In this document: positions 4,154-13,197 of the stretch, in pieces
Numbering within the stretch: position 1 is the first letter of the stretch
Layout of the letters: every line of letters begins with the position of its first letter
Origin: a virus
Virus record (IMG/VR): IMGVR_UViG_3300043410_000935
Location: 1-25,452 of that record
Length of the DNA: 25,452 nt
Strand: one strand, 5' to 3'
Position numbers and translations under genes: made by a program
Notes under the pieces: generated by a model
Told to the model about the DNA's origin: nothing
Databases searched by the model: none
Seen by the model: only the letters and a program-made list of their open reading frames with translations

Positions 4154-4381
4154 ATGAAGAATTTCATATTTTTAATAGTCATAACTATTTTGTTTATTGG
4201 TTGTAAACCTGTTAGATACGTAAATGTTAGTTCAAAACATAATTACTATGAAAAACATAGAACAACTACGTATACCGTCCCAACTTGGTTACCAAATGTA
4301 GGTATTGTTTTAGAAACTAGAGTATATCGTGGACATAGGTGGTCACAACCTAAACGAAGATATAAAAGACACAAAAAGTAA
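4154..4381 (+). CDS. Small lipoprotein
   Basis: I chose the second ATG (4154) over the one at 4139, because it gives a compact lipoprotein signal peptide, MKNFIFLIVITILFIGC, with lipobox LFIGC. The longer form would add MIFIN. The mature part is about 58 residues, begins CKPVRYVNV, is rich in Tyr, Thr and Arg and ends in a strongly basic tail (QPKRRYKRHKK). It should be lipid-anchored to the inner or outer membrane. The stop overlaps the start of the next gene (TAATG at 4379-4383), which suggests a partnership with the putative outer-membrane barrel. No family is recognised. A TATTTAT box at 4144-4150 lies 3 bp before the chosen start, as at other starts here. Confidence 0.75.
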   Translation: MKNFIFLIVITILFIGCKPVRYVNVSSKHNYYEKHRTTTYTVPTWLPNVGIVLETRVYRGHRWSQPKRRYKRHKK

Positions 4382-5862
4382 TGAAGAAATGGTTATTTGT
4401 TTTCTTTATTTTAGTGTCAATACTAATGTCCCAAGATGTTAGTGGTCAAGTAATTATGACTCAAACGTTTATTGATAAATGTTCGGGTGAGGTTAAAATT
4501 GCCACAACAACGTATGTAAATGGTAATGCGGTTGTTACATTCTACAATCAAATAAAAACATTCACACCGGCACAAGTTCAAAATGGTGAATTACAAACTT
4601 GGTTACAACAAACATATACAGCATATAATAGTACAGGTTGTCCTACAAATTTAGTAGTTCAACAAACAATTACACAACAAGTTGCCGCCGCGGCGACACA
4701 GGCAGCAAGTCAAGCGGCATCGGCAGCTGCAACCGCAGCAGCTAACGCCGCGGCAAGTGCTGCAAGTTCAAGTGCATCATCCGCAGCAAGTAACGCGGCA
4801 AGTTCGGCTGCCAGTTCTGCTGCAAGTAGTTCAGCATCCTCGGCCGCCAGTTCAAATGCGTCATCTGCGGCCAGTTCAAGTGCCGCAGCAAGTACACCAC
4901 CACCAAGCTCATCATCAAGTACACCACCGGCAAGTAGCAGTTCATCGTCTTCATCAAGTGGGGGTAGTTCTTCATCGAGTAGTGGTTCATCTTCATCGGA
5001 AAGTAAAACTGAAACAAAGACTGAAACTAAATCAGAAACAAAATCCGAGTCTAAATCAGAATCAAAATCTGAAAGTAAGAGTGAGGAAAAGAAAGAAGAA
5101 TCTAAATCAGAATCCAAAAAGGAAGAAAAGAAAGAAGAATCTAAAGAAGAAAAGAAAGAGGAGAAAAAGGAAGAAAAGAAAAAAGAAGAGAAAAAGAAAC
5201 AACAAAACATGAACCCAATGTTAATTGCTTCCGATATAACCACCGCAGAATCTCCTGACGGTAGTTATTCATTGGCAATGACTGTTGGTATCTCTAAATC
5301 ATCTCTAATGGGTGATAAATCATATAGTTTAAACGGTATGGCCTTTTCAACTTTAGATCAGTTTGCGATATCTTCGGGAGTCACTGTTATGAAATTAACA
5401 GATAAAGGTCAATTAAACTCAATCAATAGTTATTCATTCACATCAGCCTATTTAAAAGGTACGTTAATGAGTCTATTGGGTTACACTTGGATTAAACCAC
5501 ATCCTAAATTGGGTACCTATGGTTACAACGTTGGTTTAATCACATTATTAATGAAGGGGGAGGATTCTTATATGACAAGTCTATCAACGTCAACAGTTGC
5601 GTTTTGGACAAAACCATATCAATACAGTAAAAAATTAACAATATCTCCACAAGTATTTGCAATGTATTCACCAATTGGGTATAATACGTTAACAGGAGGA
5701 ACAACAGTAGGAAAACAATTTGGATTCCTATTAGGTAGTAGTATTGATTACAAGATTACAAAAAGGTTCGGATTCAGTTTCAACTATAAGTTAAATCTAA
5801 ATACCGAACCCGGTTCACCAATGCTTAGTAACTTCTTGATTGGATCAAGAGTTATGCTTTAA
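4381..5862 (+). CDS. Putative outer-membrane barrel protein with Ala/Ser and Glu/Lys low-complexity linker
   Basis: A 493-residue protein. A signal peptide (MKKWLFVFFILVSILMSQ, cleavage near DVSGQ) is followed by a compact domain up to about residue 95 (IMTQTFIDKCSGEVKIATTT). A roughly 115-residue Ala/Ser/Pro/Gly tract comes next, then a charged Glu/Lys/Ser tract to about residue 277. The C-terminal ~210 residues (from NPMLIASD) alternate polar and aromatic residues in strand-like stretches (GTYGYNVGLITLL, LTISPQVFAMYSP, FGFSFNYKLNLN), as in an outer-membrane beta barrel, ending FLIGSRVML. It is translationally coupled to the lipoprotein. A phage-encoded barrel could change the host surface, block superinfection or help lysis; alternatively it could be an adhesin-like virion protein. 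No family is recognised. Confidence 0.65.
   Translation: MKKWLFVFFILVSILMSQDVSGQVIMTQTFIDKCSGEVKIATTTYVNGNAVVTFYNQIKTFTPAQVQNGELQTWLQQTYTAYNSTGCPTNLVVQQTITQQVAAAATQAASQAASAAATAAANAAASAASSSASSAASNAASSAASSAASSSASSAASSNASSAASSSAAASTPPPSSSSSTPPASSSSSSSSSGGSSSSSSGSSSSESKTETKTETKSETKSESKSESKSESKSEEKKEESKSESKKEEKKEESKEEKKEEKKEEKKKEEKKKQQNMNPMLIASDITTAESPDGSYSLAMTVGISKSSLMGDKSYSLNGMAFSTLDQFAISSGVTVMKLTDKGQLNSINSYSFTSAYLKGTLMSLLGYTWIKPHPKLGTYGYNVGLITLLMKGEDSYMTSLSTSTVAFWTKPYQYSKKLTISPQVFAMYSPIGYNTLTGGTTVGKQFGFLLGSSIDYKITKRFGFSFNYKLNLNTEPGSPMLSNFLIGSRVML
4678..5205 (+). repeat. Low-complexity coding tract (Ala/Ser then Glu/Lys)
   Basis: Imperfect in-frame repetition of Ala and Ser codons (about 4678-5005), then Lys, Glu and Ser codons (about 5005-5205). 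Synonymous codons vary widely, so this is peptide-level low complexity and not a recent tandem expansion. It produces long open frames on other strands and frames that should not be read as genes. Confidence 0.8.
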
Positions 5863-6178: not shown

Positions 6179-6532
6179 TTAAATTATAACCTTTTCTTTT
6201 TTATTTGTCAACTCTTCGTATAATTTTTTTATTTCTGCACATTTTTCGTAATCTTCAATGTCTTCAAAAAACGGCATTAAATCTCTTGTTAATACTATTG
6301 CCTCTTGTTTGTGAAATATAAATTTTGTGTCCCAATCTAATGTTTTAATTTTTGCGGAAACATAAAGATCCAATGATTTTTTTCTAGTTGTTTTTAATTC
6401 GGTAAAAATATCAAATATTGATTCATATATGATTTTTTTGTTTTCATCATAAAAATCCGTAAAGTCATTGTATTTCCCTTGAATTTCTAAAGATATGAAT
6501 GGTTGGTTTCGTTTTCTGGTGTTTTCTGACAT
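6179..6532 (-). CDS. Unknown 117-residue protein with a UVR-like C-terminal motif
   Basis: A soluble, charged, mostly helical protein with no signal or membrane span. The C-terminal part, FEDIEDYEKCAEIKKLYEEL (about residues 88-107), resembles the UVR motif (DYExAAxLRDxI) found in UvrB, UvrC, McsA and ClpC, where it mediates protein-protein contact. The ClpC-like ATPase in this window has a similar motif. The rest (KRNQPFISLEIQGKYNDFTD, LDWDTKFIFHKQEAIVLTRD) is not recognised. It has its own promoter-like element upstream and a terminator directly downstream, so it may be expressed separately from the RNA-repair genes. The UVR reading is a weak similarity made by eye. Confidence 0.7.
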   Translation of the reverse strand: MSENTRKRNQPFISLEIQGKYNDFTDFYDENKKIIYESIFDIFTELKTTRKKSLDLYVSAKIKTLDWDTKFIFHKQEAIVLTRDLMPFFEDIEDYEKCAEIKKLYEELTNKKEKVII

Positions 6533-6603: not shown

Positions 6604-7080
6604 TTAATCTTTTCTTCGCCATTTAGCTTCCCTAACTTCAGGACTCATTTTAAACTGTTCATCAATTGTATGTGGAAAAGGTTGGTATTTACATGTCATT
6701 GGTAATCTACAATTTTTTAAATAATTGTTGATATATCCCATCATATTATGTGCTCCGACGGGATTTGCTGAATGAACAAAAATTTGGGGTAAAGGTATAC
6801 CTGTTTCAATACTCCTATTTACAAGAAATTTGCAACAATCATAACCTGTTTTTTCAATTATATTAGAATAATCAATAACATAATTATCCTTTACGTTATT
6901 GTAGTATTCAACCATTGCTGTGTCACCTAAATCATGGTCAAGTGAAATCATGTCGATATTTTCAAGACCGTGACGATTTATATTTGCAACAAATTGGGTA
7001 TAGTCTCTCACAACAATCCATTCAGAATCTGTTGGTGTCCTTACATCATCCAAATAAATTTTTACTTTTTCAATTCTCAT
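6604..7080 (-). CDS. Cyclic-phosphate processing receiver-like (cREC) domain protein
   Basis: A 158-residue protein with the hallmarks of the family called cyclic-phosphate processing receiver domain: IYLDDVRTP (D11, D12, R14), ISLDHDLGD (D48, H49, D50), a TGYDCCKFLV helix (79-87) and FVHSANPVGAHNM (H103, S104, N106). The family has a response-regulator-like fold with altered active-site residues, and has been proposed to process 2',3'-cyclic phosphate RNA ends because it occurs beside RNA ligases. Here its ATG lies 11 bp inside the end of the RNA ligase gene, so the two are translationally coupled. It would act in the cytoplasm, preparing 3' ends before ligation. The activity itself is a family-level prediction; the family match is a confident reading by eye. 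Confidence 0.8.
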   Translation of the reverse strand: MRIEKVKIYLDDVRTPTDSEWIVVRDYTQFVANINRHGLENIDMISLDHDLGDTAMVEYYNNVKDNYVIDYSNIIEKTGYDCCKFLVNRSIETGIPLPQIFVHSANPVGAHNMMGYINNYLKNCRLPMTCKYQPFPHTIDEQFKMSPEVREAKWRRKD

Positions 7081-8293
7081 CTTTCTTAAATGGTTTTTCG
7101 TATTTTGGTTTCATTAATCTCCATATGATATGTTCATATGGTTTCCTATCCCACATGGCAAATAGTATCGGTCTATAAAATGTTTCAACATTACATTTCT
7201 CTAAATGTAGTGCAAAATCCTTTTTTGTTGGTTCGGGGTAAACGTCCCCGTATTTACCATATCTAAAGTAATCGTGTATTTTGCCACAATGTTCTCTAAT
7301 GTTATACATACCATATTGAAATGAACTAACTTGTTGTTTAACCCATTTGTAAAATTCATCAGGTACTCTATCTAAAAATTCATCTAAAGGTTTACCTTCC
7401 TTCATTAATTCCCAAATATCTTTAGAAGAAAAATTAGTTAGAATTTTATGTAATCTTTTATATTCTTCACCTTTTATTTTCATACGAAAACCATTCTTGA
7501 AACGAATTACATAACCTTCTTTATCTTTTGAAATTTCTTCCTTTAATACGTCATACCCTTCTCCCCATGTCTTATATAACATAACAACACGAAATCCAAT
7601 ATTTGAAATCATGTTTTTTAAACGAATATCATTATTGTCGTTATGGATATTAACCTCGTCTCCGGTTTTAGTATTTATCACACCTAACAAAACAAGATCT
7701 TCATAATCATACTCACACACTATTCTGTTCTCTTTGTAGATTATCTCAAACAAATATGTGTAATCGGTATGCAACCTTTCAAAATTATATTTTTCTAAAA
7801 GTTCCTTACCTTTAATTGCTTGTGGTGATGTGAAAGAACCACGAGTCGCCATAATCCATTCACCTTTAGTCTTTGGGGTCGGTTCGTAATACGGGTCATC
7901 AAAATTAGGTAGGTTGTTTGGGTCAAAGAACTTTTCCATACCGGTTTCGTAATTGTTATTGAACCATATGTTGTATCTTCTTTCATCACTCAATTCATAT
8001 TCGTAATAAAAAAGAATACCTAAAGACCCATCCATTTTTTCATAAACATCAAACAATTCATTTGGTAAATCCTCTGGTTTATGTTCTTCATAGTTAAAAA
8101 ACTTCTTAAATGGTCTTGCAACAATATCACCTTTAGAGTTTGTAACTAATCCACGACATTGCATAGTAATATCATCCCATAATTTCTCGTATTGAACTTT
8201 TGGGGAATAATTCCAAATAGTTAAATCAAGAGTTGGGTGAGTTTGTTTGTGTAACAAACCTTCTTTATGGTATTTCTCTAATGTTGATAACAT
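7070..8293 (-). CDS. rnlA: T4 Rnl1-type RNA ligase
   Basis: A 407-residue ATP-dependent RNA ligase (T4 RNA ligase 1 is 374 residues). Nucleotidyltransferase motifs appear in order: motif I YEKMDGSLG with the predicted adenylated lysine K86; TRGSF at 150-154; LFEIIY (181-186); motif IV EGYVIRF (259-265); motif V MKIKGEEY with K272 and K274. The C-terminal ~120 residues form the family-specific region, which in T4 recognises tRNA. The enzyme seals 3'-OH and 5'-phosphate RNA ends in the cytoplasm, and in T4 repairs tRNA cut by the host anticodon nuclease. It shares TAATG with the upstream 79-residue gene and overlaps the cREC gene by 11 bp. All catalytic residues I looked for are present, so it should be active. 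The substrate here is inferred. Confidence 0.9.
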   Translation of the reverse strand: MLSTLEKYHKEGLLHKQTHPTLDLTIWNYSPKVQYEKLWDDITMQCRGLVTNSKGDIVARPFKKFFNYEEHKPEDLPNELFDVYEKMDGSLGILFYYEYELSDERRYNIWFNNNYETGMEKFFDPNNLPNFDDPYYEPTPKTKGEWIMATRGSFTSPQAIKGKELLEKYNFERLHTDYTYLFEIIYKENRIVCEYDYEDLVLLGVINTKTGDEVNIHNDNNDIRLKNMISNIGFRVVMLYKTWGEGYDVLKEEISKDKEGYVIRFKNGFRMKIKGEEYKRLHKILTNFSSKDIWELMKEGKPLDEFLDRVPDEFYKWVKQQVSSFQYGMYNIREHCGKIHDYFRYGKYGDVYPEPTKKDFALHLEKCNVETFYRPILFAMWDRKPYEHIIWRLMKPKYEKPFKKDEN

Positions 8294-8532
8294 TATTTAT
8301 GTTTTTTAGATACTCCGAATGTAAAACTTTTATCTAACCAAGAAATGGATAAATAAAGACCGACAAAACCATCTTTAATAAATCTTTTGTGTTCTATCGG
8401 TGAGTAAGTTTCTAAATATAAATCAATGACAGGTATTATATGTATCGACCATTGATGATTGTGCTTGTTGAAATAAAATTTCATCTTATTTGTATTTTGA
8501 GTGTGAAAATATGATTTGATGAATTCACTCAT
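8293..8532 (-). CDS. Unknown 79-residue protein inside the RNA-repair cassette
   Basis: A small soluble protein, starting MSEFIKSYFHTQNTNKMKFY and ending FTFGVSKKHK. It has alternating hydrophobic strand-like segments (WSIHIIPVIDLYLETYS, GFVGLYLSISWLDKSFTFG), which suggests a small beta-rich fold. No family is recognised. Both ends overlap by one base in TAATG junctions, with the kinase upstream and the RNA ligase downstream, so it is made from the same message and probably at similar levels. It may be a small partner or regulator of repair; there is no direct evidence. The C-terminal ISWLDKSFTFG stretch is typical of short phage proteins of unknown role. Confidence 0.75.
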   Translation of the reverse strand: MSEFIKSYFHTQNTNKMKFYFNKHNHQWSIHIIPVIDLYLETYSPIEHKRFIKDGFVGLYLSISWLDKSFTFGVSKKHK

Positions 8533-8954
8533 TAAAGTTTAGTTTCAAATCTATCCTTCATTTGTTGAAGTTTATCTTCAGGGACATTATGAACATTTCC
8601 CCCTCCGTGGCGATTTTCTACTATTACTGTGTGAACCCTATACTTGTATCTTTCCGCCATGTCAAAATAAATTTTCATTTCCCATTCTTGTGTAAATGTA
8701 TTTGCCACAACAATTTTTGAAAATTCATTTTTCATTTTGTTAGCACATCTAACTTGACAGTGATTATGTGCCTCTTTTAATTTAGTGACATCAAAATTAT
8801 AATTCCCATCAGAATCAACAAAGTAATCGTCTGCCGATAAAACATCAGGTTGATCACTACCAACACAACGAAGTATTGCCGAACCTAATGTGGTTTTACC
8901 ACTACCAGGTATCCCTCTTAATAAGATTAAGTCTCCGATAAAATTATTTTCCAT
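8532..8954 (-). CDS. P-loop polynucleotide kinase (AAA_33/PNK-like)
   Basis: A 140-residue P-loop kinase. Walker A is RGIPGSGKTT (residues 13-22, K20). SADDYF (41-45) follows, as in the 5'-OH polynucleotide kinase group where an Asp acts on the 5'-OH. Then IVVANTFTQEWEM (81-93) and a C-terminal NVHNVPEDKLQQMKDRFE stretch, typical of the kinase domains of N4BP2- and CNP-like proteins. There is no 3'-phosphatase domain, unlike T4 Pnkp. It would phosphorylate 5'-OH RNA ends in the cytoplasm before sealing by the ligase. It is first in the cassette and shares TAATG with the 79-residue gene. The short gap upstream holds a terminator, so transcription may depend on read-through or an unseen promoter. 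Confidence 0.82.
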   Translation of the reverse strand: MENNFIGDLILLRGIPGSGKTTLGSAILRCVGSDQPDVLSADDYFVDSDGNYNFDVTKLKEAHNHCQVRCANKMKNEFSKIVVANTFTQEWEMKIYFDMAERYKYRVHTVIVENRHGGGNVHNVPEDKLQQMKDRFETKL

Positions 8955-9368: not shown

Positions 9369-11381
9369 CTATTTTTTTGAAATAGTTAGTTTTTCGTTAG
9401 CATATCTAATGACTGCAAGTTTACCTTCAACGATATTACCTTTCAAGATTTCCTCACTTAAGAAGTCCTCACATAAATTTTGGATAATACGTTTAAGTGG
9501 TCTCGCACCATATTCTTCTTGAACGTTAAGTTCGTGAATTCGTTCGATAATTGATTGGTCAAAAGTCACATTAAATCCTTTATCAATTAAACGATTGTTT
9601 AGTTTACCAAGTTCAATAAGAATGATTTTCTTCAATGTTTCAGTATCCAACGCATTAAATAAAACAATGTCATCAATACGATTTAAAAATTCAGGATTGA
9701 ATTGTTGTTTTAATGATTTTTGAATCATTGATTTACGAACTTCATATTGTTGTTGTTCACTGCTTGATGTTGAGAATCCAACACCTCCACCGAATTCGGA
9801 TACTTTCTTTGCTCCAACGTTTGAAGTCATAATAATCAAACAGTTAGTAAAGTTTACCTTACGTCCAAATGAATCGGTTAAATGTCCCTCATCTAATATT
9901 TGTAACAATAAATTGAACACGTCCTTATGTGCCTTTTCAATCTCATCAAATAAGATAACCGAGAATGGATTGTTTTTAACCTTTTCAGTCAATTGACCTC
10001 CCTCATCGTATCCAACATAACCTGGAGGAGAACCAATTAATTTAGATACGTTATGACGGTCCATAAATTCACTCATGTCAACACGAATAATTTTATCAGG
10101 ATCACCAAATAACATTTCCGCTAATGATTTTGCCAAGAATGTTTTACCAACACCCGTTGAACCTAAAAAGATAAACGAACCAATAGGTTTATTACTATCT
10201 TTAATACCTACACGATTACGTCTGATGGCTTTTGATATGGACGTAATTGCTTCGTCTTGACCAATTACCTTAAGTGAAAGATTTTCTTCCATTTTAAGTA
10301 ACTTCTGTGTCTCCTTATCGTCTAATTTACTGATAGGTACACCTGTCATTTGTGATACAATTTCGTACACATCATTAATTGATACGGGAGTTTTATTATC
10401 TTTTTGTTTTTCCGCCCATTTTGTTTTCTCTTTCTCAAGTTTGTCTAAAACTTTTTTCTCATCATCTCTTAATTTTGCTGCGTTTTCGTAATCTTGTTTT
10501 TTAACAACTAAAAGTTTTTGTTCTTTAATACTCTCAACTTCTAGTTTTAATTTCTCAATTGATTCAGGAATACGACTTGATACACGTTTTTCAGAACCCA
10601 ATTCATCAATCACATCGATTGCTTTATCAGGAAACTGTCTATCTGTAATATAACGTCCAGCCAATTTAACAATTGTTTCAATTACACCATCCTCATAAGT
10701 TACTTTATGGAAATCTTGATATGATGTTTGAAGATTCTTTAGAATTTCAACAGTTTCGGCTGCGGTTGGTTCGTTAAGTATGATTTTTTGGAAACGTCTA
10801 ACCAATGCCGCATCTTTTTCGATGTGTTTTTTAAACTCATCAAATGTTGTGGCACCAATACATTGTATTTCACCTCTTGCCAACGCAGGTTTTAGAATGT
10901 TTGCAGCATCCATCGCACCACTTGCGTTACCCGCACCAACCATAGTATGTAACTCATCAATGAATACAATCACATTTGGTGATTCTTGTAATTCATTTAA
11001 GATAGCTTTAATTCTTTCTTCGAATTGTCCACGGTATTTTGTACCGGCAACAAGTGAAGTTAAATCTAACGACATGATTCTCTTATCTAAAAGATTAGTA
11101 GGACAATCACCTTTAACAATCATTAATGCAAGTTTTTCAACGAGAGCCGATTTACCAACACCCGCATCACCTACAATAACCGCGTTATTTTTCTTTTTAC
11201 GTGATAGAATTTGTGCAATTCGTTTCACTTCTTTATCCCTGCCAACAACAGGGTCAATTTTACCATCTTCCGCAAGTTTAATGAGATCCCTTGAGAAGTT
11301 ATCTAAAATTGGTGTGGTTGAACCTTTCCGAGTTTTTTTCGGGTTAGTAACGGGTCCATCGTCAAAAAAGTCTACTGCCAT
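9369..11381 (-). CDS. clpC: ClpC-like AAA+ unfoldase lacking the N-domain
   Basis: A 670-residue protein with two AAA+ modules. D1: Walker A GDAGVGKS (71-78), Walker B VIVFIDE (137-143), pore motif KYRG (115-118) and RR at 195-196. A short helical insert has the UVR-like QDYENAAKLRDDE (296-308). D2: GSTGVGKT (407-414), SVILFDE (474-480), pore GYVG (454-457) and LNRID (566-570). A VGF tripeptide (534-536) after TSNVGA sits where ClpC/ClpA carry the ClpP-docking loop, so it may hand substrates to host ClpP. Host ClpC proteins are about 820-850 residues; the missing part is the ~150-residue adaptor-binding N-domain, replaced by a 45-residue leader. It lies divergent to Hsp20, with a Bacteroidota-type promoter. 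Confidence 0.88.
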   Translation of the reverse strand: MAVDFFDDGPVTNPKKTRKGSTTPILDNFSRDLIKLAEDGKIDPVVGRDKEVKRIAQILSRKKKNNAVIVGDAGVGKSALVEKLALMIVKGDCPTNLLDKRIMSLDLTSLVAGTKYRGQFEERIKAILNELQESPNVIVFIDELHTMVGAGNASGAMDAANILKPALARGEIQCIGATTFDEFKKHIEKDAALVRRFQKIILNEPTAAETVEILKNLQTSYQDFHKVTYEDGVIETIVKLAGRYITDRQFPDKAIDVIDELGSEKRVSSRIPESIEKLKLEVESIKEQKLLVVKKQDYENAAKLRDDEKKVLDKLEKEKTKWAEKQKDNKTPVSINDVYEIVSQMTGVPISKLDDKETQKLLKMEENLSLKVIGQDEAITSISKAIRRNRVGIKDSNKPIGSFIFLGSTGVGKTFLAKSLAEMLFGDPDKIIRVDMSEFMDRHNVSKLIGSPPGYVGYDEGGQLTEKVKNNPFSVILFDEIEKAHKDVFNLLLQILDEGHLTDSFGRKVNFTNCLIIMTSNVGAKKVSEFGGGVGFSTSSSEQQQYEVRKSMIQKSLKQQFNPEFLNRIDDIVLFNALDTETLKKIILIELGKLNNRLIDKGFNVTFDQSIIERIHELNVQEEYGARPLKRIIQNLCEDFLSEEILKGNIVEGKLAVIRYANEKLTISKK

Positions 11382-11538: not shown

Positions 11539-11907
11539 ATGATAACATTATTCAAAGACCCACTTTTCAACACTTTAGATAGAGTGTTTGACGATGCTTA
11601 TTTAAGAGCTGATAAAAAAACTAACATTACCAAAGAAGGAAATGATTATCATCTACAGATTTCGGTGCCAGGATTAACTAAAGATGATATTACCATTTCT
11701 TTAAAAGATAATGTAATGTCCATTTCATATGATAAAAGTGAAAAGAATAAAAATTTCACATTTACAAATTCATTTAAAAAATCATATGAATTACCTGATG
11801 ACGTTGATGAAAAACACATCACAGGAACAGTTGAAAACGGTATTCTTGAAATTGTAATACCTACGAGTAAACGAAAAACAACCGAACGTCTAATATCCCT
11901 AAATTAA
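11539..11907 (+). CDS. hsp20: Hsp20/alpha-crystallin small heat-shock protein
   Basis: A 122-residue holdase chaperone. The alpha-crystallin domain spans about residues 28-110: DYHLQISVPGLTKDDITISL near the start and the signature GTVENGILEIVIP near 94-106 (the family's G-x-L motif). The N-terminal arm is short (MITLFKDPLFNTLDRVFDDA). It lacks a clear C-terminal IxI anchor but has LISLN at the end. It would bind unfolding proteins in the cytoplasm. T4-like phages of marine bacteria often carry Hsp20. Here it is divergent from a Clp unfoldase, so holding and unfolding may be co-regulated through the ATGTC repeats. A terminator follows 4 bp after the stop. Confidence 0.93.
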   Translation: MITLFKDPLFNTLDRVFDDAYLRADKKTNITKEGNDYHLQISVPGLTKDDITISLKDNVMSISYDKSEKNKNFTFTNSFKKSYELPDDVDEKHITGTVENGILEIVIPTSKRKTTERLISLN

Positions 11908-12196: not shown

Positions 12197-12442
12197 ATGG
12201 GAATTATATCAGAAAAAATTGATGGTAAACTAATTGAAGTTACTGTCAACTCAACAAATTTAAAAACGGCATCATATAATACTGAAACCGAAGATTTAAT
12301 TGTAACTTTTAATAACGGTGGTATTTATCAGTATGATAAAGTACCTTGGAATAAGTTTACCAAATTTAGGTTAGCCGAATCTCAAGGAAAATATTTTAAC
12401 CAAAACATCGCAAAAAGTTACAATTACAAAAAAATACAATGA
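12197..12442 (+). CDS. KTSC-domain protein
   Basis: An 81-residue single-domain protein matching the KTSC pattern: VNSTNLKTASYNTETEDLIV, then FNNGGIYQYDKVPWNKFTKF, and AESQGKYFNQNIAKSY near the end. The name comes from its fusion to the C-terminus of some lysyl-tRNA synthetases, and the molecular role is not settled, though binding of RNA or protein has been suggested. The stop overlaps the next start by 4 bp (ATGA at 12439-12442), linking it to the nucleotidyltransferase. No signal peptide, so cytoplasmic. Confidence 0.82.
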   Translation: MGIISEKIDGKLIEVTVNSTNLKTASYNTETEDLIVTFNNGGIYQYDKVPWNKFTKFRLAESQGKYFNQNIAKSYNYKKIQ

Positions 12443-13197
12443 GTTTATTTGAAGAATTGATTGAAGATAGGGTTGGGGATGAAAAGATTATTAAATCTTT
12501 TGAGTCTAAAGAAACGCTATCAGATAACATATTCGAAACTTCAGGTAAAAAGATTGTAATGCGTGATGATATTAGAAAATCATTATTAAAAATTGCGGAT
12601 GAATTTGTTGATACATTAGGAATTGAGTTTTTTATTCATGATGTTGTCTTAACGGGATCACTTGCAAATTACAATTGGTCCAATTTTTCCGATGTTGATT
12701 TACATATTGTAATTGATTATAAAGAAACTGATTACAATATAAATTTACTTAAGGAATTTTTTGATGCGAAGAAAAATGTATGGAATGAAAAACATGATAT
12801 CAAGATTAAAGGTTTTGATGTGGAGGTGTATGTTCAAGATGTGGAGGAACCACACATTTCTTCCGGTGTATATTCTATTCTAAATAACAAATGGATTATT
12901 GAACCTGAAATGTCTAAACCAAATATTGACGATAGAAAAATATTAGAAAAAGGTGAAGAATATGCCAAGAAAATAGACAATTTAATATCAAAAGCTCAAA
13001 AAGGTAACGATGTTATTAAAGAAATAGAATCATTACGTAAGAAGTTAAAAACGTTCAGACAGAGTGGATTAGATGGTGGTGGAGAGTACTCTTATGAAAA
13101 CTTAACCTTTAAATTATTAAGAAGAAACGGATACATCGGTAAATTATTAAAATTAAAAACTATAGTTACAGATAAGAAATTGTCTGTGGCACAATAA
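12439..13197 (+). CDS. Pol-beta superfamily nucleotidyltransferase with phage C-terminal helical domain
   Basis: A 252-residue protein. The core has LTGSLANYNWSNFSDVDLHI (71-90) with the GS pair (73-74) and the metal-binding DxD (D85, D87), and a third acidic residue in FDVEVYVQ (E129), so the catalytic set looks complete. Such enzymes transfer a nucleoside monophosphate to a protein, RNA or small molecule; the substrate cannot be read here. The C-terminal part, KLKTFRQSGLDGGGEYSYEN followed by LTFKLLRRNGYIGKL (about 206-240), is a separate helical module that I believe recurs after similar domains in T4-like phages. Coupled to the KTSC gene. It is not MNT/HEPN-like in context, since no HEPN partner is visible. 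Confidence 0.75.
   Translation: MSLFEELIEDRVGDEKIIKSFESKETLSDNIFETSGKKIVMRDDIRKSLLKIADEFVDTLGIEFFIHDVVLTGSLANYNWSNFSDVDLHIVIDYKETDYNINLLKEFFDAKKNVWNEKHDIKIKGFDVEVYVQDVEEPHISSGVYSILNNKWIIEPEMSKPNIDDRKILEKGEEYAKKIDNLISKAQKGNDVIKEIESLRKKLKTFRQSGLDGGGEYSYENLTFKLLRRNGYIGKLLKLKTIVTDKKLSVAQ

Follow-up and report, generated by a model that had tools for sequence, protein, structure and literature searches.

A probable RNA-repair locus of a T4-like phage with an optional cREC gene and an RNA ligase carrying a passenger peptide

The stretch of DNA analysed here as a whole (the window), an IMG/VR virus record of 25,452 bases, is a fragment contig of a T4-like phage, and it probably carries an RNA healing-and-sealing locus in which the helpers acting at the 3' end vary between phages and the RNA ligase harbours a passenger peptide. 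The T4-like assignment is based on recognisable terminase, portal gp20 and prohead protease gp21, and a Bacteroidetes host is likely, as the nearest cultured relatives are Flavobacterium, Cellulophaga and Tenacibaculum phages.

The cluster starts with a single-domain P-loop kinase (AAA_33; 8532–8954, 140 aa), followed by U79 (8293–8532, 79 aa), an Rnl1-type RNA ligase (7070–8293, 407 aa, motif I K86-M-D-G) and a cREC protein, i.e., a cyclic-phosphate processing receiver-like domain (6604–7080, 158 aa), all on the minus strand. These four genes had been described in an earlier note made from the sequence alone, and its reading of the junctions is borne out: TAATG is found at 8532 and at 8293, the ligase and cREC genes overlap by 11 bp (7070–7080), and all the proteins match their families except U79, which has no Pfam or PHROGs match and no relatives among cultured phages at the searched depth. 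Two elements come in addition to that description, a fifth gene, U117 (6179–6532, minus strand, 117 aa, no family), which the neighbourhood survey reveals to be the regular last member of the cluster, and a 41-residue insert in the ligase. The gene order is kept in dozens of contigs and is thus not due to chance. No tRNA genes were found in the window, which counts against the RNA-repair reading. Elsewhere in the window, a phage ClpA/B-like AAA+ protein (9369–11381) and an HSP20 chaperone (11539–11907) are encoded beside the cassette and kept in most relatives, a polymerase-beta-like nucleotidyltransferase (12439–13197; PF01909 just below cut-off) is possibly another RNA-end enzyme, and a secreted-looking protein (4381–5862) contains long Ala/Ser and Lys/Glu/Ser repeats, several frames being open there through composition.

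The ligase belongs to the Rnl1 family by its profile matches (RNA_lig_T4_1, 1.6e-16, 61.3 bits against a curated cut-off of 28.3; phrog_562, 1.4e-67), by its motifs KxDG (motif I), FEII...NRIV, EGYV and RMKIKGE, which vary little or not at all among 29 homologues, and by its predicted fold, since its AlphaFold model, of moderate quality, matches T4 Rnl1 (best Foldseek matches 5tt6 and 2c5u, E ~1e-14, though with a TM of only 0.43–0.49). In four relatives (L108:5643-7986 and L109–L111), the ligase gene is interrupted near motif IIIa, and two ORFs in or beside it look by eye like homing endonucleases, which could represent a group I intron or a pair of mobile inserts. In two other records (G041:C1:138406-139188 and G056:C1:267869-268615), the C-terminal ligase match crosses one stop codon, TGA and TAA, respectively.

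The kinase matches AAA_33 (1.5e-12) and phrog_2071 (3.3e-35), and the 'polynucleotide kinase' family phrog_505 at 3.9e-6 only. As it is nearer to phrog_2071, annotated only as 'ATPase', than to polynucleotide kinases, its substrate could be something else. As in T4-type Pnkp, it contains a P-loop kinase domain with an Asp at the expected place: the P-loop, D42 and an E-N-R-H / N-x-H motif are invariant in 46 homologues, and this Asp could, by analogy, be the general base. The earlier note was right that the 3'-phosphatase domain is missing, the 140-aa protein consisting of the kinase domain only, without the C-terminal HAD domain of T4-type Pnkp. No PNKP-type HAD is found above cut-off in any ligase-holding IMG/VR record; sub-cut-off matches occur in G025, G026 and G035, and T4-type phosphatases above cut-off only in Tenacibaculum phage pT24 and two records lacking the ligase. 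The kinase and ligase families together support the proposal of an RNA-repair cassette, with activities that are predicted from sequence.

The cREC protein is a member of the cREC_REC family (PF20274, 3.7e-22, 79.2 bits against a cut-off of 27) with conserved active-site aspartates. In 47 homologues, D10 D11 R13, D47 H48 D49 and H102 S103 A104 N105 are invariant (numbering from residue 2 of the protein). Judged by the invariance of these aspartates and of the kinase motifs, both proteins look active. cREC was named by Iyer et al. (2021), who predicted its role on cyclic phosphates and reported operons with RNA ligases (PMC7824862). Neighbourhoods of T4-like ligase, cREC and nucleotide kinase, with the same predicted role, were then described by Iyer et al. 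(2022; PMC9503650). The activity on 2',3'-cyclic phosphate is a prediction only, and ADP-ribose products have also been considered as substrate (PMC7824862; PMC9503650).

How constant each member of the cassette is was assessed in IMG/VR, where scans with the cREC and ligase queries gave 27 and 80 loci, respectively, which come from 87 distinct contigs that include near-identical ones; the 83 contigs containing the ligase are the base of the following counts. The kinase adjoins the ligase in 81 of them, the two others (L072 and L107) beginning too near the ligase to judge, and U79 lies between both genes in ~32. The linkage anticipated by the earlier note is strong. cREC adjoins the ligase in 57/83 contigs, often with an overlap of 8–11 bp. 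It is missing from at least 22 of the 83 although downstream sequence is present and the kinase-ligase pair is kept; in 15 of these, U117 directly follows the ligase. Kinase and ligase thus form a fixed core, with cREC as an optional accessory. Since the homologues come from one broad clade, co-occurrence partly reflects common descent. In some contigs, other sequence separates ligase and cREC: a 273-aa ORF that looks by eye like an SGNH hydrolase in L033 (9083–9904), and likewise ~0.8 kb in L034, L071 and L072.

Whole ligase-bearing records lead to the same view. cREC is absent from five of them, G004 (251 kb), G008 (207 kb), G009 (188 kb), G012 (133 kb) and G015 (111 kb), all of which keep the ligase and, with it, the kinase. 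Together with the contigs lacking cREC, they weaken the suggestion that cREC supplies the missing 3'-end step, which in its strong form is not supported: cREC is an optional accessory and not an obligatory 3'-end step. One type of calcineurin-like phosphoesterase is found near the ligase in 12 of the 83 contigs (e.g., L075 and L038), seven without and five with cREC, and lies within ~2 kb of the ligase in G008, G009, G012 and G015, none being near it in G004. A 2H phosphoesterase was also considered as the missing 3' enzyme and rejected, as none is found above cut-off in 43 records. As the window contig is a fragment, other 3'-end enzymes may lie beyond it.

What cREC would act on bears on two other readings. 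The first one, which we hold to be possible but rather unlikely, is that it processes soluble ADP-ribose or cyclic-nucleotide products instead of RNA ends and shares an operon with the ligase because both counter host defences. Both options are found in the literature, along with Nudix fusions and sirtuin links (PMC7824862; PMC9503650), the jumbo-phage homologues are annotated as Nudix proteins, and cREC and the ligase also occur independently, cREC being encoded without ligase in L010, L013, L017 and L030. However, the constant partner of cREC in the clade is the ligase, and no Nudix protein is present among the window genes scanned; nor was a sirtuin recognised among the scanned window proteins, which cover part of the ORFs of a fragment contig. 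In L010, L013 and L030, a different calcineurin-like phosphoesterase adjoins cREC, at a locus without kinase or ligase.

The second reading, unlikely in our opinion, is that cREC is a dedicated 3'-end enzyme opening 2',3'-cyclic phosphates for the ligase, with the kinase, cREC and the ligase as obligatory steps of a single pathway. It would account for the tight linkage with frequently overlapping ligase and cREC genes and for the conserved acidic residues of cREC, and it follows the published prediction (PMC7824862; PMC9503650). It is nevertheless difficult to reconcile with the kinase-ligase pairs devoid of cREC, in some large records devoid of any cREC at all, and with cREC genes devoid of ligase; moreover, after ring opening, a phosphate would remain to be removed. 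We therefore retain variable 3' helpers around a kinase-ligase core. Since the pair cannot depend obligatorily on cREC, the published prediction can be put to a sharper test, and phages with and without cREC offer matched enzymes for comparison.

The cassette shares with the T4 Pnkp-Rnl1 system, carried in its T4 form by pT24, a 5' kinase and an Rnl1 ligase, for which the same reaction order is expected. It differs from it by the missing HAD domain, by the adjacency of its genes in one cluster, by the optional cREC and by the passenger insert of the ligase. The idea of a distinct module, raised in the earlier note, is not new, since Iyer et al. (2021, 2022) had already described such operons and neighbourhoods and proposed the same role on cyclic phosphates (PMC7824862; PMC9503650). 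The neighbourhoods of the Escherichia phage V5 and Proteus phage Mydo type contain the same three core components (PMC9503650), but no MazG is seen here and the calcineurin-like gene is present only in some relatives. In jumbo-phage cREC operons, cREC is likewise linked to RNA ligases with the same predicted role (PMC7824862), whereas the cREC of the cassette is stand-alone, without Nudix fusion. The cassette is a new member of this published kind and was mostly anticipated by these predictions. What it adds is a kinase with a single domain, a cREC gene that is optional, and synteny within the clade.

The passenger peptide corresponds to residues 101–141 of the ligase (7871–7993, minus strand, 41 aa), an in-frame insert that the closest sister ligase lacks. 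Ligases of the clade are found in two forms, an empty one, with ILFNYE(N/G)EW in the hairpin that follows motif I, and a filled one, in which this hairpin has a net gain of 45 codons (in the window, the whole insert relative to the empty site spans 7862–7999, minus strand) with a conserved 41-residue core of consensus LSDERRYNIWFNNNYETGMERFFDPNNLPDFDNPYYEPTPK. AlphaFold models suggest that the insert begins with a helix, the remainder being in the ligase a low-confidence coil. One contig (L106) has an empty ligase and the same peptide in its thymidylate synthase. A degenerate DNA pattern covering 12 residues of the core and subsequent profile scans retrieved from IMG/VR 67 different DNA versions encoding 55 peptides, at four kinds of site: the ligase hairpin, two loops of thymidylate synthase, the first one lying, by analogy with the bacterial enzyme, between two strands and the second one nearer to the C-terminus, and a small ORF (L145, L151 and L506). 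In the two records checked (G007 and G040), this small ORF is less than 1 kb from thymidylate synthase.

In six-frame searches of 64 records, exactly one copy was present in each of the 49 positive ones. These single copies rule out a docking tag common to several enzymes of one phage. Among 19 positive records with both carriers, the peptide is located in the ligase in 6, in thymidylate synthase in 12 and in the small ORF in 1 (for G041, G042 and G050, the carrier was read from fetched loci). By count, this exclusivity is striking, but several of these records are close relatives and, in our judgement, both carriers occur together in no more than about seven independent lineages; with kinship allowed for, it is not significant (p ~0.14, a rough hand count). 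On a ligase tree made without the insert columns, presence of the peptide changes at least five times, the window and L033 being sisters that differ; the insert's own tree does not have the length needed to tell which way the peptide moved. The peptide is dispensable, as some records lack it (G001, 335 kb; G005, 217 kb).

The peptide does not correspond to a known domain, with no Pfam match, best values of 0.06 in PHROGs and 0.65 in the PDB, and no credible match in cultured phages. Its exact core is absent from 84,980 bacterial and archaeal species genomes, a regular-expression search of the fetched loci for further carriers gave nothing convincing, and no in-frame phage inserts of this kind were found in the open-access literature. 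To our knowledge, a recurring 41-residue peptide in different phage enzymes has not been described before. Both thymidylate synthase sites also hold loops with the same ends (ELSxEER ... IPxR) and unrelated middles, including a VPFGGG type found at both sites, whose count is a lower bound as the search pattern lacked the Leu codons TTA and TTG; two of these alternative types are present in the cultured Flavobacterium phage immuto. Sites 1 and 2 are hypervariable (e.g., L233, L237, L241, L246, L112 and L196), and exchangeable inserts seem to be a general feature of the thymidylate synthase of these phages.

As the scans could only retrieve copies with a conserved core, selection on the peptide was estimated on residues 20–41, the half lying outside the pattern of the first scan; later profile scans used parts of this right half, which may have introduced a mild bias. 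Compared with the ligase insert, this region has a pS of 0.55 and a pN of 0.10 at thymidylate synthase site 1, of 0.71 and 0.125 at site 2, and of 0.76 and 0.17 in the small ORF. Within filled ligases, pN is 0.044 in the insert (0.060 in its right half) and 0.204 elsewhere in the enzyme, with a similar pS (~0.54 for the insert). The amino-acid identity of the insert, 0.90 (right half, 0.86), is near the value for the catalytic motif I region and above the ligase median of ~0.73. The RNA of the insert folds no better than shuffled sequences (z = +1.63), and no palindrome spans it, the only inverted pair being imperfect, of 11 nt, with one arm outside the insert. As amino acids are kept while synonymous sites have diverged and no RNA fold is found, selection acts on the peptide itself, and more strictly than on most of the carrier protein; high synonymous divergence and the lack of a fold also rule out an RNA element.

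These results support well the view that the peptide is a recurring, selected unit in unrelated enzymes. Because the peptide behaves as one evolutionary unit whose amino acids are under selection of their own, a transferable mini-domain is likelier than a part of the ligase chemistry. The chances seem to us evenly balanced that T4-like Bacteroidetes phages carry it as a free-moving mini-domain, under strong selection of its own and with at most one copy per genome, which would have changed places among four sites, in three proteins unrelated to each other, and would act in trans, e.g., by binding or inhibiting a host protein, the enzymes being mere carriers.

Rickettsia palindromic elements are known to insert in frame into unrelated protein genes, in a way that is reminiscent of the peptide. 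The insert could accordingly be selfish DNA of a comparable type, tolerated in surface loops, as could be expected from its in-frame insertion at several unrelated sites, its polymorphic presence, and the loops with the same ends and different middles at the thymidylate synthase sites. We find this doubtful. Such elements occur in many copies per genome and as palindromic, stably folding sequences, whereas the peptide is phage-borne, never exceeds one copy per record (49/49), has no palindromic structure or RNA fold, and is under purifying selection on its amino acids, with far diverged synonymous sites. As for the ligase, it is very improbable that it acts mainly as a tail-fibre attachment factor, a role also reported for T4 gp63 and echoed in the two names borne by phrog_562, given its complete nucleotidyltransferase motifs and nearly invariable kinase partner.

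Coming back to RNA repair, Rnl1 ligases and polynucleotide kinases are expected to phosphorylate 5'-OH ends and to join them to 3'-OH ends. In the locus described here, the P-loop kinase would phosphorylate 5'-OH RNA ends and the Rnl1 ligase would then seal the 5'-phosphate to a 3'-OH. The 3' end could be prepared by variable helpers: cREC, the natural candidate by its predicted activity, where it is present, the calcineurin-like phosphoesterase in some relatives, and host enzymes or none elsewhere. The locus would probably serve to rescue tRNAs, or RNAs of other kinds, after cleavage by metal-independent host nucleases, the probable enemies being those that leave 5'-OH and 2',3'-cyclic phosphate ends. 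The cleavage of tRNA anticodons by target-activated Cas13a is reported as one anti-phage case of RNA cutting (PMC11042736).

The passenger peptide matters more than the cassette itself. If our reading of it is true, a short peptide has been kept by selection while changing carriers, and phage proteins may hide functions that annotation by whole-protein similarity misses. The loop inserts of conserved enzymes would thus be worth searching for hidden effectors.
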